A stretch of DNA of 64,000 bases from Thermococcus sp. 4557 (GTDB taxonomy: Archaea; Methanobacteriota_B; Thermococci; Thermococcales; Thermococcaceae): contig NC_015865.1 in the NCBI RefSeq assembly GCF_000221185.1, forward strand, positions 1,116,001-1,180,000. Reading direction: 5' to 3'. A model generated the notes under the pieces. That model was not told the origin of the DNA. It made no database searches and saw only the letters and a list, made by a program, of their open reading frames with translations. A program made the translations under genes and the position numbers. Position 1 is the first letter of the stretch, and every line of letters starts with the position of its first letter. Shown piece by piece: positions 11,249 to 16,232 of this stretch.

Positions 11249-13615
11249 TCAGCCGTTCGCCAGGATGTCGTCTATCCTGAAAACCCCCCTATCCAGCACC
11301 GTCTTCTTCCGGACGTAGGTGTACCTCACGACGACGCTTCCGTTGATGTCGTCGGGGAGAACAAAGGAATCCCTCCCACCGACGCCGTACCACTTCTTGA
11401 AGACGAGCGTGCCGTTGTCGAGGTAGCCGTAGACCCCAAGGCCGGTTCCGGTGGCGTTGGTGAACCTGAGAACGACGGAGCCGTTTTCCGCGGCAACGAC
11501 GACGTTCGGATGCCTGAACCGGAAGATCTTCACGTAGCCGCCGTCGGAGTACACGAGGGTGTAATTCCTGGGACAGTCATCGGTAAACATCAGCCGCGCC
11601 AGGGGGGTGTCGAAGGCCCTGCCGTTCATGAGAACCGCGTAGCCGTAGTTCAGGTTTATGTAAACGTAGACGTCGGCGGTGGGGCGGCCGGAGAGGGCCA
11701 CCTCGTCCAGCCTTTCACCGGCCTCAACGAAAACCCTCTCGGGCAGCAGGAAGCGCCCGCCGATGTTCACCTTGACGTCCCACCTATCCTTCCCCGGAAC
11801 GGCCATCACAGAGTAGGGGCCGCTGGAGAACACGAGGATCGATCCGCGGGAGGGCACCCTGTGAAGCACCACGAGGCCGTACTCGTCCGGGGAGACCCTC
11901 GCCGTCTCCATAACGGCCCCGAACTTCATCAGGGTGTCGTAGGAGACGATGACGTAATCAACGCCGAGCTTCATCAGGTCGTTTTCCCCCTTGAGACCGA
12001 GGTAGTACTTGGCCACCCATTCTCGCGGCCCTCCCTGCGCAACGGGGGCCCTCATCGAGTAGTACGTCACCCAGTGGCCCTGATCCCACCAGGTGAGGAC
12101 GACGTCGTTGGGGTTGGAGACGTTCCCGAGGTAGGTGAGGGCGGACTCCCAGTTGCCGGTCATGAAGGGGTGGACGCTCAGCGTTGTGCCGGTTCCCTGG
12201 TATGCAGATATCAGGGGGACGCCAATCAGGAGCAGGGAGAGGGCAGCGGAGAGCCATTTCCGTTTGTTCTCAGTGATACCCTCAATCCAAGCATCCGCCG
12301 TATCATAGAGGGCCACCAGCCCAATGCCGGTCATAGCGGCCACTGCGAGGGAGGATATGAAGAGGAACCTGGTCCAGATGACAGCCATGGGTATCATGAC
12401 GATGGCGGTGCCCAGGAGGAGGAAATCGGCGGGCCTGGGGCGCCTGAGGAAGCGGATGAGGAAGAGCGGCACGAGAAGTCCCGCGATGCCGTAGGCCTCC
12501 CACCAGTCATCGAAGGCCGTCCTCTGGGTTTCGGCTATCGGGCTCTCCGGGAAAATGCGAAGGATGGCCCCGTTTATGACGCCGTAGTACCTGACGGCCA
12601 GCCAGAGCGCCGCGGCCGTCCCGATGAGGACTATCAGCGCCCTCTGTTTTCTATCACGGACGAACCTGGAGAGAATCGCCAGGGCGATGACGGATGCCAT
12701 GGCGAGGGGAAGTGCGTATTTGAGGTACAGAAGGATGAACAGGTCCCTGATGAACCCGAACTGGACCCCGAGCTCCTCGGCCAGCTTTCTCCCTAGCCAG
12801 TGGGTGGCGCCCACCATGCCGTACCCGAGGTGGGGGCCTATCGAGTTTGCTAGAAGGGCGCCGACGGCCAGGGATGCGAGGAGGGCCAGGGAATCCCGGA
12901 GGTACCTGTCCCTCCCGAGGAGGAACGCACCCACGGCGAGGAGGAGGGCGTTGGCGGCAACGAGTGCGAATATGGGGTAGTACGCCTGCCAGAATGCCGC
13001 GGAAAGGCCGGCGAAGATCCCGGGCAGGAGATAGAGTGCCAGCCGGACGTTCCTCCACCGGGGGCCCCTGAGGGAAAGGGGAACGGCGGTTCCAAGGAGG
13101 GCCGCGCTGTATAGGAAGAGCATGTAGTTGTCGCCGCGGTAGTAACCGGCCATCGAGCGGAAGACGTGGCCGAAGCTCACGGCCAGGAGAAACGCCGAGA
13201 GGAAGGCCTCTCTCTTGCCGTAGAGCCTCAGCACGGCGAGGTACGTGAACAGCACGGTGAGGACGCCGAATACAACCGGCGTTATTCTGAAGGCGTTGTA
13301 GAGCGAAACGCCGAAGGGGGAGAGGAGTTTATAGAAGTAGGCGGGTGTCATCCACAGACCGAGGGGGTGGAATCCGCCAATCTGGTACCCGTAGGGGCCC
13401 AGGGCGTGCGTGAAGAAGTTCACCCACTCTCCCTTCTCCAGAGCATACCGGATGTAAGCGAGGTGGAAGTATGGATCGTAGCCGAGGAGGTACTCAAAGC
13501 GCAGGGGGATGAGCCTGAAGGCGAGGGCGATAGCGGTTACGATAGGGGCCGCGAACTTGGGCTCGATGATGGTGTGCAGAAAGGATGCTATTTCAGACCT
13601 CCTCCACCGTTCCAT
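11249..13615 (-). CDS. aglB: AglB/STT3 oligosaccharyltransferase, paralogue 1
   Basis: This membrane enzyme transfers a glycan from dolichyl phosphate to Asn in N-x-S/T of secreted proteins. The 788-residue protein has a polytopic N-terminal half and a soluble C-terminal half. Catalytic features: GYDPYFH in the first outside loop (Asp47), GYYRGDNYM near residue 160 for the second metal site, SPIAETQ as the T-I-x-E-like motif, and WWDQGHWVTYYS near residue 508, where most relatives have WWDYG. The RBS GAGGGGA lies 6 bases before the ATG, and a TATA-like CTTTTATTA is near 13665. A second AglB of the same length is at 35060; both are short relative to the roughly 970-residue AglB-L type. Confidence 0.93.
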   Translation of the reverse strand: MERWRRSEIASFLHTIIEPKFAAPIVTAIALAFRLIPLRFEYLLGYDPYFHLAYIRYALEKGEWVNFFTHALGPYGYQIGGFHPLGLWMTPAYFYKLLSPFGVSLYNAFRITPVVFGVLTVLFTYLAVLRLYGKREAFLSAFLLAVSFGHVFRSMAGYYRGDNYMLFLYSAALLGTAVPLSLRGPRWRNVRLALYLLPGIFAGLSAAFWQAYYPIFALVAANALLLAVGAFLLGRDRYLRDSLALLASLAVGALLANSIGPHLGYGMVGATHWLGRKLAEELGVQFGFIRDLFILLYLKYALPLAMASVIALAILSRFVRDRKQRALIVLIGTAAALWLAVRYYGVINGAILRIFPESPIAETQRTAFDDWWEAYGIAGLLVPLFLIRFLRRPRPADFLLLGTAIVMIPMAVIWTRFLFISSLAVAAMTGIGLVALYDTADAWIEGITENKRKWLSAALSLLLIGVPLISAYQGTGTTLSVHPFMTGNWESALTYLGNVSNPNDVVLTWWDQGHWVTYYSMRAPVAQGGPREWVAKYYLGLKGENDLMKLGVDYVIVSYDTLMKFGAVMETARVSPDEYGLVVLHRVPSRGSILVFSSGPYSVMAVPGKDRWDVKVNIGGRFLLPERVFVEAGERLDEVALSGRPTADVYVYINLNYGYAVLMNGRAFDTPLARLMFTDDCPRNYTLVYSDGGYVKIFRFRHPNVVVAAENGSVVLRFTNATGTGLGVYGYLDNGTLVFKKWYGVGGRDSFVLPDDINGSVVVRYTYVRKKTVLDRGVFRIDDILANG

Positions 13616-13785
13616 TAAAGTCCCCTCTTACCTCCGGTTATCCCACAGTTCACTACCATCGCAGAGTAATAAAAGCGTTGCGCAGCCGCCACGGTTTTGC
13701 ACGTCCGCGTCGAGGGTGCGGGAGCCCCCGGGTAAAAATTATTTCGAACCGTTTCAAAAAAATTTTGCTATAAATAAAAGCAAAG

Positions 13786-13797
13786 GTTTATATAGTT
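13786..13797 (+). promoter_or_regulatory. TATA box and BRE of the structured RNA
   Basis: AAAGG followed by TTTATATAG forms a good archaeal BRE/TATA element centred at about 13791. A start 26 bases downstream falls at 13817, exactly the first base of the closing stem of the RNA candidate. Confidence 0.6.
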
Positions 13798-13816
13798 AAA
13801 GACCCTATAGGTATTT

Positions 13817-13977
13817 GAGGAGTGTCTCGCGGGGGAGACTGAAGCGAAAGCTTCACCCGGCTGCGGACCTGAACTGATAACGCGTCCATGATTCGTGAGG
13901 GGTCGTGGATTGCATTTAATGGCGAAGGTCTGTAAAGAGTGGAACTTAACTCCAGCCTTTCCGACGGGGCACTCCTC
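13817..13977 (+). ncRNA. Structured small RNA candidate, 161 bases
   Basis: The outer ends GAGGAGTG (13817-13824) and CACTCCTC (13970-13977) pair perfectly, extended by T13816-A13978. Inside are the hairpin TGAAGC-GAAA-GCTTCA (13840-13855) with a GNRA tetraloop and a longer hairpin at 13924-13961. In the latter, GAAGG pairs CTTTC, CTG pairs CAG, and GAGT pairs ACTC, with a U-C mismatch and a TAAA bulge. A small TCTC/GAGA stem lies at 13825-13838. No long reading frame fits. The size and GC-rich stems recall Pyrococcus hgc-type RNAs, but I cannot assign it to a known family. It could instead be an H/ACA-like guide or a regulatory RNA. Confidence 0.65.
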
Positions 13978-14090
13978 ACTTCTTCTAACGTCCCTAAAAA
14001 AGCCAATTGCCGAAAACATCACGTCTGGAAGAGTCTTCTGATCACGGGGTCCGGGATGATGTATTCCCTTCCCAAAGGTCAAAAAGCATT

Positions 14091-14117
14091 AGACCCCACC
14101 TGTTTCAGGTAGGGTCT
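14091..14117. repeat. Palindromic 27-base repeat, copy A
   Basis: The arms AGACCC-c-ACCTG and CAGGT-a-GGGTCT pair around a TTT loop, giving 11 base pairs and one mismatch. A second copy lies at 14166-14192. Copy A matches the reverse complement of copy B at 24 of 27 positions and its direct strand at 23 of 27. The two copies bound a 102-base unit. Confidence 0.75.
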
Positions 14118-14165
14118 CATTGTTAATAAGGATTGCGATTTGATGCACCGCAAGGCCAGAGAAGT

Positions 14166-14192
14166 AGACCCCACCCGAAACAGGTAGGGTCT
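14166..14192. repeat. Palindromic 27-base repeat, copy B, at a gene end
   Basis: The arms AGACCC-c-ACCCG and CAGGT-a-GGGTCT pair around AAA. The copy begins within the stop codon of the nucleotidyltransferase gene (14192-14194), so it may form that gene's terminator hairpin. With copy A it could be the terminal repeats of a very small non-autonomous element. The 48 bases between hold no gene. Confidence 0.7.
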
Positions 14193-15187
14193 CACTCACC
14201 CCTCTGTATCTTCGCGTGCCCGCCGACGAGGCTCTTCCTGAGCTCGAGGTTTCTTATCTCGCACTTCTCGTCGATGATGGAGCGCCAGATGGTGGAGTTT
14301 TTGATAACGGTGTTCCTGAAGATTATGGAGTCGCTGACGTCGGAGTTCTCGATGACGCAGTTCTCGCCGATGTAGGCGTAGGGGCCTATTATTGACCTCC
14401 CGAGTATCTTGGCGCCCCTCTTTATGACTACCGGGGGAATGATTTTCGCGTAGGGGCTTATCTGAATCTCCTCGACGTGGCTCTCGCGCAGGAGGGTCTT
14501 GAGGGCCTCGAGGTAGCTGTCGGCCGAGCCTATGTCGTACCAGTACTCGGAGAAGCGGTAGGCCTTAATCGGCTCGCCCCTCTCGAGGAGCCACTGGAGG
14601 AAGTAGCCGGGGGAGTCGCGGTTGCCGTTGGAGAGGTACTCTTCGATGCGCTCCATGACGGTCCTAGGGAAGACGTAGACGCCGGTGCTTATGAGCGTCG
14701 AGCGCGGCTGGGCCGGCTTCTCCTCGAAGGATATAACCCTGTCTCCTTCCAGGACCACCACACCGTAGCGCTTCGCCAGTTCGAGGTCGCCGACGTCGTA
14801 GACCGCTATCAGCGTCCTGCCGTCGTAGGCCCTCAGAAAGTCCCTCAGGCCGAAGGAGAAGAGGTTGTCGCCGGCGATGACGAGGTAGTCGTCGGGGCCG
14901 AGCTCCTCCACGGCCTTCTTCATGGCCCCTATCGTGCCGAGCTTCTCCTCCTCGTGAAGGGTGTCCTCCACTATAAGGCCCACGCCGTGCTTCTCGGCGT
15001 AGGGGCGGAAGTGGGCCTCGAAGAAGCGGTTGGTTGAGATGTAGGTCTCGAGCTCCAGCTCCATAACGCTCTCCAGGATGTAGTCGAGGATCACCCTGTT
15101 CCCGACTGGAAGCAGGGCCTTCGGGTTGTCCTTGGTTATGGGCCAGAGTCTGGTGGCGTAGCCGCCGGCCATTATGAGGACTCTCAT
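14192..15187 (-). CDS. Sugar-1-phosphate nucleotidyltransferase with left-handed beta-helix tail
   Basis: The enzyme joins a sugar 1-phosphate to a nucleoside triphosphate to make an activated sugar. The signature MRVLIMAGGYATRLWPITKDNPKALLPVGN is the G-G-x-G-T-R-L-type loop plus the P-K-x-L substrate segment. IAGDNLFS is the metal-binding region, and FEEKP and YWYDIGSADSYLEA are later family motifs. From about residue 245 there are hexapeptide-like repeats (IIPPVVIKRGAKILGRSIIG and onward), as in RmlA/GlmU-like archaeal enzymes. The exact sugar cannot be read off; glucose or N-acetylglucosamine are likely. The RBS GGTGAT lies just before the ATG. It is divergent from the epimerase gene, sharing a TATA-rich spacer. 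Confidence 0.9.
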   Translation of the reverse strand: MRVLIMAGGYATRLWPITKDNPKALLPVGNRVILDYILESVMELELETYISTNRFFEAHFRPYAEKHGVGLIVEDTLHEEEKLGTIGAMKKAVEELGPDDYLVIAGDNLFSFGLRDFLRAYDGRTLIAVYDVGDLELAKRYGVVVLEGDRVISFEEKPAQPRSTLISTGVYVFPRTVMERIEEYLSNGNRDSPGYFLQWLLERGEPIKAYRFSEYWYDIGSADSYLEALKTLLRESHVEEIQISPYAKIIPPVVIKRGAKILGRSIIGPYAYIGENCVIENSDVSDSIIFRNTVIKNSTIWRSIIDEKCEIRNLELRKSLVGGHAKIQRGE

Positions 15188-15278: not shown

Positions 15279-16232
15279 ATGAAAGTCCTCGTTACGGGAG
15301 GTGCCGGGTTCATAGGCTCACACCTGGTGGATAAGTTGATGGAGCTCGGATGGGAGGTCAGGGTTCTCGACGACCTCAGCGCGGGCAGTCTGGAGAACAT
15401 AAGGCGGTGGCTGAACCACGAGCGCTTTGAGTTTATCGAAGGGGACATGAGGGACCCGGGAATCGTTGGGGAAGCCGTTGAGGGCGTCGATGCCGTCTTT
15501 CACCTCGCGGCGAACCCGGAGGTTAGAATAGGCTCCCAGAGCCCGGAGCTGCTCTACGAGACAAACGTGCTGATAACCTACAACCTGCTCAACGCGATGA
15601 GGGGTTCAAGCGCCAGGTACCTCGTTTTCACCTCCTCCTCAACCGTCTACGGCGACGCGTCCGTGATTCCGACGCCGGAGGACTACGCCCCGCTCGAACC
15701 GATAAGCGTCTACGGCGGTGCGAAGCTCGCGGCCGAGGCTTTAATCAGCGGCTACGCCCACACCTTCGGGTTCAGGGCCCTGATCTTCCGCCTCGCCAAC
15801 ATCATAGGCGAGCGCTCGAACCACGGGGTCATCTACGACTTCATAAACAAGCTCAGGAAGAACCCGGGGGAGCTCGAGATACTCGGCGACGGCACCCAGA
15901 GGAAGAGCTACCTCCACGTGAGCGATACGGTTGAGGGCATGCTCCACATCTTCGAGCGCTTCAAGGGGAGCGACAGAACCGTCGACTTCTACAACCTCGG
16001 CAACGACGACTGGATAACCGTTCGGGAGATAGCGGAGATAGTCAGCGAGGGGATGGGGTTAAAGCCAGCCTTCAGGCTCACCGGCGGCGTCGATGGGGGC
16101 CGCGGCTGGAAGGGGGACGTCAAGTTCATGCGCCTGAGCATAGAGAAGGCGAAGGAAACCGGCTGGAGTCCGAGGCTCAACAGCTACGAGGCTGTCCGGA
16201 GAACGGTCGGGGAGCTCCTCAGAACGGTTTAA
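15279..16232 (+). CDS. NAD-dependent nucleotide-sugar epimerase (UDP-glucose 4-epimerase type)
   Basis: An extended short-chain dehydrogenase of 317 residues. The Rossmann motif is VTGGAGFIGSHLVDKL, the Asp for NAD ribose is in VLDDLSAG, HLAANPEVR follows, and the active-site strand is FTSSSTVYGD with the catalytic pair in VYGGAKLAAEA (YxxxK). The C-terminal part binds the nucleotide sugar. It likely interconverts UDP-glucose and UDP-galactose or the N-acetyl forms. ATG 15279 was chosen; the longer frame from 15174 runs through the promoter and is not credible. It supplies sugars for the nearby glycosyltransferases and AglB. Confidence 0.9.
   Translation: MKVLVTGGAGFIGSHLVDKLMELGWEVRVLDDLSAGSLENIRRWLNHERFEFIEGDMRDPGIVGEAVEGVDAVFHLAANPEVRIGSQSPELLYETNVLITYNLLNAMRGSSARYLVFTSSSTVYGDASVIPTPEDYAPLEPISVYGGAKLAAEALISGYAHTFGFRALIFRLANIIGERSNHGVIYDFINKLRKNPGELEILGDGTQRKSYLHVSDTVEGMLHIFERFKGSDRTVDFYNLGNDDWITVREIAEIVSEGMGLKPAFRLTGGVDGGRGWKGDVKFMRLSIEKAKETGWSPRLNSYEAVRRTVGELLRTV

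Follow-up and report, generated by a model that had tools for sequence, protein, structure and literature searches.

A structured RNA gene of Thermococcales found near surface-glycan genes

The locus in Thermococcus sp. 4557

The window (the whole 64,000-nucleotide stretch of Thermococcus sp. 4557 DNA analysed here) carries, between two minus-strand protein genes, a structured RNA that the first-pass annotation had placed at 13817-13977 on the plus strand. The closing-stem ends GAGGAGTG (13817-13824) and CACTCCTC (13970-13977) are present and complementary, and the GAAA hairpin and the 3' hairpin described with them were likewise located. The features are listed below, where R1 is a covariance model of 14 same-genus sequences, A2 is the same-genus alignment and A3 is an alignment mostly of other genera; a second model, R2, comprised 17 sequences mostly of other genera.

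11249..13615, minus strand: divergent neighbour, a 788-aa STT3/AglB-type oligosaccharyltransferase (Pfam STT3, 1.2e-6, above the curated cut-off)
13737..13762, plus strand: conserved element AATTATTTCGAACCGTTTCAAAAAAA upstream of the promoter, where the conserved unit begins at about -80 (0.37 to 1.29 bits per base, 24 loci)
13763..13784, plus strand: inverted repeat TTTTGC-N11-GCAAA, a possible transcription-factor site, conserved in same-genus loci
13780..13794, plus strand: BRE/TATA promoter, GCAAAGG plus TTTATATA (TATA at 13787-13794), distance conserved in relatives
13816..13985, plus strand: structured non-coding RNA (fold z -5.6; R1 match of 107 bits at 13815-13985; covariation)
13817..13830, plus strand: P1 closing helix, 5' strand (double-changed pairs: 8 in A2, 6 in A3)
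13840..13855, plus strand: P2 hairpin UGAAGC-GAAA-GCUUCA, nearly invariant core with invariant alignment columns; alternative long-range pairing with P4
13863..13933, plus strand: P3, a long variable hairpin with an internal tandem-purine loop (double-changed pairs: 4+2 in A2, 8+9 in A3)
13937..13952, plus strand: P4 hairpin GAGT-GGAACTTA-ACTC, conserved loop GGAACUU (family consensus in the alignment roughly GRAACYY)
13964..13977, plus strand: P1 closing helix, 3' strand (same covariation as the 5' strand)
14192..15187, minus strand: convergent neighbour, a sugar-phosphate nucleotidyltransferase (Pfam NTP_transferase, 1.6e-42)
15279..16232, plus strand: NAD-dependent sugar epimerase/dehydratase of the same island (Pfam Epimerase, 3.1e-55)

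The RNA had been credited with a promoter of its own, and the evidence from relatives agrees. The centre of the TATA element TTTATATA lies 26 bases before 13817, preceded by the BRE-like GCAAAGG, and a TATA element was found at equal distance in 24 loci of the same genus; that fold and promoter agree on one 5' end, first noticed in the single sequence, thus holds across relatives. The RNA 3' end probably lies 6-8 bases beyond 13977 (CTCACTTCTTC), the predicted transcript is about 165-170 nt long here (about 165-185 nt for the RNA family), and the start codon of the oligosaccharyltransferase gene is about 200 bases from the RNA start. The annotated extent was right in that the RNA does lie at 13817-13977, but too narrow for the conserved unit, which covers about 13737-13985. 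With the 24 same-genus loci aligned without gaps from the RNA start, conservation began sharply at -80 and ended at the RNA 3' end (1.59, then 0.41, then 0.15 bits), leaving one conserved unit from -80 to about +171 between unconserved flanks; these sharp edges therefore mark the unit as an isolated gene. Its parts follow in the order upstream element, inverted repeat, BRE/TATA, RNA and pyrimidine-rich end. A genome-wide scan for the inverted repeat at up to 3 mismatches returned this single match, so no regulon was found, and a genome-unique repeat just upstream of the TATA element was counted in favour of the reading preferred below.

Just behind the nucleotidyltransferase stop codon, two near-identical hairpin repeats (14088-14119 and 14164-14195; AGACCCCACC..GGTAGGGTCT) are terminator-like on the minus strand, with similar sequences in three other loci (L004, L007 and L032).

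Distribution, fold and covariation

In blastn searches of 94 Thermococcales genomes with the RNA and its promoter as query, full-length relatives were recovered down to about 70% identity. The RNA was found in about 41 of the 94 genomes, covering all six genera, with R1 and R2 each identifying 41 genomes under the stricter filters that apply to covariance searches across >40 genomes, where very diverged copies may be lost; each set contained a single weak genome that the other lacked (G022 for R1, G080 for R2). The covariance models found no RNA in the other genera of a 115-genome sample of the phylum, and an exact pattern scan of GTDB contigs, which may leave out records close to the window's genome, gave four records, all from Thermococcales MAGs. 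As far as searched, the family therefore appears restricted to Thermococcales. Genomes with the RNA include those we take to be T. onnurineus NA1, T. sibiricus and T. barophilus MP, and genomes without it those we take to be T. kodakarensis, P. abyssi and P. horikoshii. In T. onnurineus NA1 the predicted ~165-nt transcripts would start on the minus strand near genome positions 1724085 and 1724398. Absence from about half the genomes means that the RNA is not essential. Two copies are damaged: that of genome G027 (L100) has lost its promoter and has a much weakened fold (-57.7), and that of G022 (L109) carries an internal deletion; both were counted in favour of the reading preferred below.

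In three loci (L008 of G026, L013 of G040 and L014 of G038), a second copy stands in tandem, about 150 bases upstream of the other; it represents a diverged subtype with an altered P4 and its own promoter.

The 161-base RNA of the window folds at -76.1 kcal/mol, compared with -52.1 +/- 4.3 for shuffled sequences (z -5.6, 0 of 200 shuffles as good), and all 39 intact members tested were more stable than their shuffles (median z -7.5, weakest -3.6). Compensatory changes in relatives, proposed earlier as a check, were found in the outer stems, which are conserved. In A2, 94.5% of pair cells were standard pairs, with 14 double-changed pairs (0 of 500 shuffles reaching this), and in A3 the values were 91% and 29 (0 of 500). 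Sliding the partners by 1-3 columns in A2 lowered pairing to 35-47%, a comparison that by its design favours the tested structures over the slid versions, since the former came from sequences within these alignments; the double changes are for this reason the stronger evidence. Covariation support falls mainly in P1 and P3, and both helices are supported by compensatory changes among the aligned sequences. G-U pairs were 2.7-4 times as frequent as A-C mismatches (GU 110/159 versus AC 26/59 in relatives), an excess that points to the plus strand as the one selected as RNA, although the element is nearly palindromic. The element is almost certainly a real structured RNA gene.

The near-palindrome with inverted termini, and the fact that the models also score the reverse strand, could be read as a MITE or transposon end whose closing stem represents terminal inverted repeats. 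Covariation, strand bias and a conserved promoter lying outside the "repeats" argue against this, as does the low copy number (one or two per genome), with copies within a genome usually divergent. Searches of plasmid and viral collections and contigs returned no match to the RNA, and a mobile-element end, which the first-pass annotation had considered as a source of refutation, is thus extremely improbable.

The core of the RNA (P2, GAAGC-GAAA-GCUUC, and P4 with its loop of roughly GRAACYY) hardly varies across the alignments. Two mutually exclusive folds fit its A2 sequences, namely local hairpins (95.6% of cells), which form a four-way junction, and a long-range P2-P4 helix (91.6%), which forms a continuous rod; because the core hardly varies, covariation does not choose between them. 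Of the 34 members scored, 26 had predicted ensembles that favoured the local GAAA hairpin (0.99 in the window), whereas the long-range form was favoured in several members of genus g5. The position of a near-invariant core beside fast-changing helices suggests that the core binds a protein or RNA partner.

Coding potential and known RNA families

The absence of a reading frame, asserted from the single sequence, was borne out in relatives: none of the six frames ran open across the RNA in more than 9 of 39, and lengths were not multiples of three, so that protein coding was rejected. An antisense ORF cluster ("c16") was set aside as a by-product of RNA conservation.

Rfam 15 includes HgcC, HgcE, HgcF, HgcG, SscA and the archaeal H/ACA families. 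At gathering score the whole window yielded tRNAs alone, and several further family members gave only chance matches at a permissive threshold; the RNA matches none of the 4227 families, and the "something new" that had been offered as one possibility is supported. The other possibility, an Hgc-type or H/ACA-like RNA, is not, with no Rfam match at gathering score and a closing stem followed in the family by CACTATTCT/CACTTCTTC without an ACA box. The Hgc RNAs (HgcC/E/F/G) and SscA of Pyrococcus and Thermococcus are alike in being intergenic, G+C-rich structured RNAs of hyperthermophilic archaea, but the new RNA gave a covariance match to none of them and is absent from the presumed P. abyssi and T. 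kodakarensis genomes. Archaeal H/ACA guide RNAs share stable hairpins and, for multi-hairpin guides, a similar size, whereas the new RNA has neither the ACA box after the closing stem nor an Rfam match; inspection by eye showed no clear K-turn or K-loop, and P3 has a symmetrical tandem-purine loop instead. A C/D box guide RNA was also rejected, as the alignments showed no conserved C/D boxes and the best Rfam C/D matches fell outside the RNA and far below cut-off.

A further comparison is with sRk48 and sRk52 of P. abyssi (PMC3124441), also thermococcal structured RNAs with a BRE/TATA, several copies and one highly conserved hairpin, but these were reported in P. horikoshii and T. kodakarensis, where the new RNA was absent. 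With filters off, the matches of R1 and R2 at both P. abyssi loci were weak and local, spanning about 50-70 bases and never exceeding 16.5 bits, and this identity was rejected. The P. abyssi sRk52 and sRk48 loci (L148 and L149), which encode experimentally known RNAs, themselves had no Rfam match at gathering score. No earlier description of the new RNA was found in the open-access literature searched, and one may exist elsewhere. The novelty claimed lies in an RNA family outside the known ones, and not in its mechanism.

Surface-glycan islands and possible function

Of 41 loci, 40 have surface-glycan or sulfation genes no more than 6 kb away, a count that is a description rather than a test because the marker set was picked after viewing the loci and those of close relatives are not independent; the remaining locus is near a gene resembling a polysaccharide flippase. 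The island genes, named by Pfam for key members and by sequence inspection for the others, include oligosaccharyltransferase, nucleotidyltransferase, sugar epimerase/dehydratase, ATP sulfurylase, APS kinase, flippase, glycosyltransferase and sugar oxidoreductase. The exact identity of the neighbours varies between genomes, and the link to the islands could be passive. No marker or partner protein gene was found constantly beside the RNA, and the nucleotidyltransferase family was present in all 25 RNA-less genomes tested, with a close homologue in 23. In one locus (L091 of G073), a sugar-nucleotide dehydrogenase gene lies 208-2785 bases past the RNA; its product of 918 aa is about double the length of its relatives and seems to carry an intein-like insertion after GGHC.

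A recurrent non-coding element at such sites may have a bacterial parallel in JUMPstart/ops, which is conserved at many different enterobacterial surface-polysaccharide clusters as a short leader upstream of an operon. The likeness is in the recurrence at surface-polysaccharide clusters; the new RNA differs as a free-standing gene that usually points against the operon. The next gene downstream is convergent in 34 of the 41 loci, which led to the rejection of a riboswitch or 5' leader, and in 25 its stop codon falls no more than 60 bases from the 3' end of the RNA; the neighbour on the other side is usually divergent. Such an arrangement would suit a cis-antisense RNA placed tail to tail against whatever glycan gene is there, pairing with its 3' UTR or causing polymerases to collide, and any 3' UTR of the convergent gene would be perfectly complementary to the RNA. 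This mechanism, however, needs neither a conserved, compensated structure nor an invariant core across six genera, 7 loci have no convergent gene next downstream, and the convergent gene differs between genomes; we regard it as unlikely.

The islands also show exchange around the gene. In G017 and G015, two relatives that lack the RNA, about 9-13 bases separate the stop codon of the nucleotidyltransferase gene from the start of the oligosaccharyltransferase gene, compared with 577 bases in the window. Among 50 RNA pairs at least 85% identical, which are not independent of one another, just 12 retained both 300-bp flanks; in the other 38 one flank or both were unrelated over that distance, and 19 of these pairs shared neither. 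The G061 locus is a chimera with a G032-like upstream side and a G000-like RNA and downstream side. Two copies in G042 (L079 9624-9790 and L112 9827-9993), 28 kb apart, are identical over the transcript alone (about 166 bases), with 74% likeness in the promoter and about 50% in the flanks, so that the identity tract coincides with the transcript boundaries; they were likely homogenised by gene conversion. Flank replacement, the chimera and the G042 copies indicate that the gene sits where island modules are exchanged. The same observations, with the closely joined genes of RNA-less relatives, would be expected of a selfish or recombinogenic cassette in which the ~250-bp unit is a homology anchor or mobile cassette for glycan-module exchange. 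Compensatory changes and the G-U excess indicate selection on the transcript instead, copies number one or two and occupy one island type, plasmid and viral contigs are without it, and neither a regularly associated transposase nor insertion duplications (checked by eye) were seen, making a cassette quite improbable.

The conserved promoter, the invariant core beside fast-changing but compensated helices, the patchy presence and the link to the islands are better explained by a trans-acting regulatory RNA or RNP than by a housekeeping RNA, a riboswitch or a transposon end. Our preferred reading, proposed from sequence comparison and held with middling confidence, is a free-standing, regulated, trans-acting regulatory RNA or RNP linked to surface-glycan expression. 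Transcription of the autonomous gene would begin at a conserved and probably regulated promoter of its own (-80 to -1), and the transcript would fold into the long closing helix P1, the long hairpin P3 and the almost invariant P2/P4 core. That core would form a four-way junction when it closes as two similar local hairpins, and a rod when it closes as a single long-range helix. An RNA or protein partner, with L7Ae and SmAP as candidate proteins, would then read the core in trans, and the outcome would be tuned expression of the putative target, the surface-glycan genes. Duplex energies between the RNA and the starts of neighbouring genes pointed to no consistent site of base pairing, with rankings that probably track G+C content, so a base-pairing mechanism is unsupported.

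The same invariant core, its twin similar hairpins, the very stable fold and the failure to find target complementarity would also be consistent with a structural RNP RNA, a scaffold or assembly component free of regulatory function, its gene having simply persisted in an island that varies. A housekeeping RNP would not usually be patchy in its presence, lost by deletion and tightly linked to glycan islands, and this too is considered unlikely. A bolder version of the regulatory reading, in which the RNA is a bistable switch for the cell surface (the core flipping between local hairpins and rod, a dedicated factor controlling the promoter, a glycan module being chosen and the gene acting as the exchange junction), is a highly speculative proposition.

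Among archaeal RNAs other than guide RNAs, few structures are well supported, and a clear genomic association is rarer still. For the regulatory RNA or RNP favoured here, the mechanism is a proposal, and since the RNA is present in the presumed T. onnurineus NA1 and T. barophilus MP genomes its function is testable. It has probably been missed because it is absent from P. abyssi and T. kodakarensis, which are among the best-mapped species. Since the search of the T. kodakarensis genome returned no copy, the RNA should not appear in the map of that species (PMC4247193). The T. onnurineus transcriptome report (PMC5316973) gives 57 intergenic non-coding start sites, of which 22 were assigned to Rfam, and the new RNA may be one of those left unassigned.
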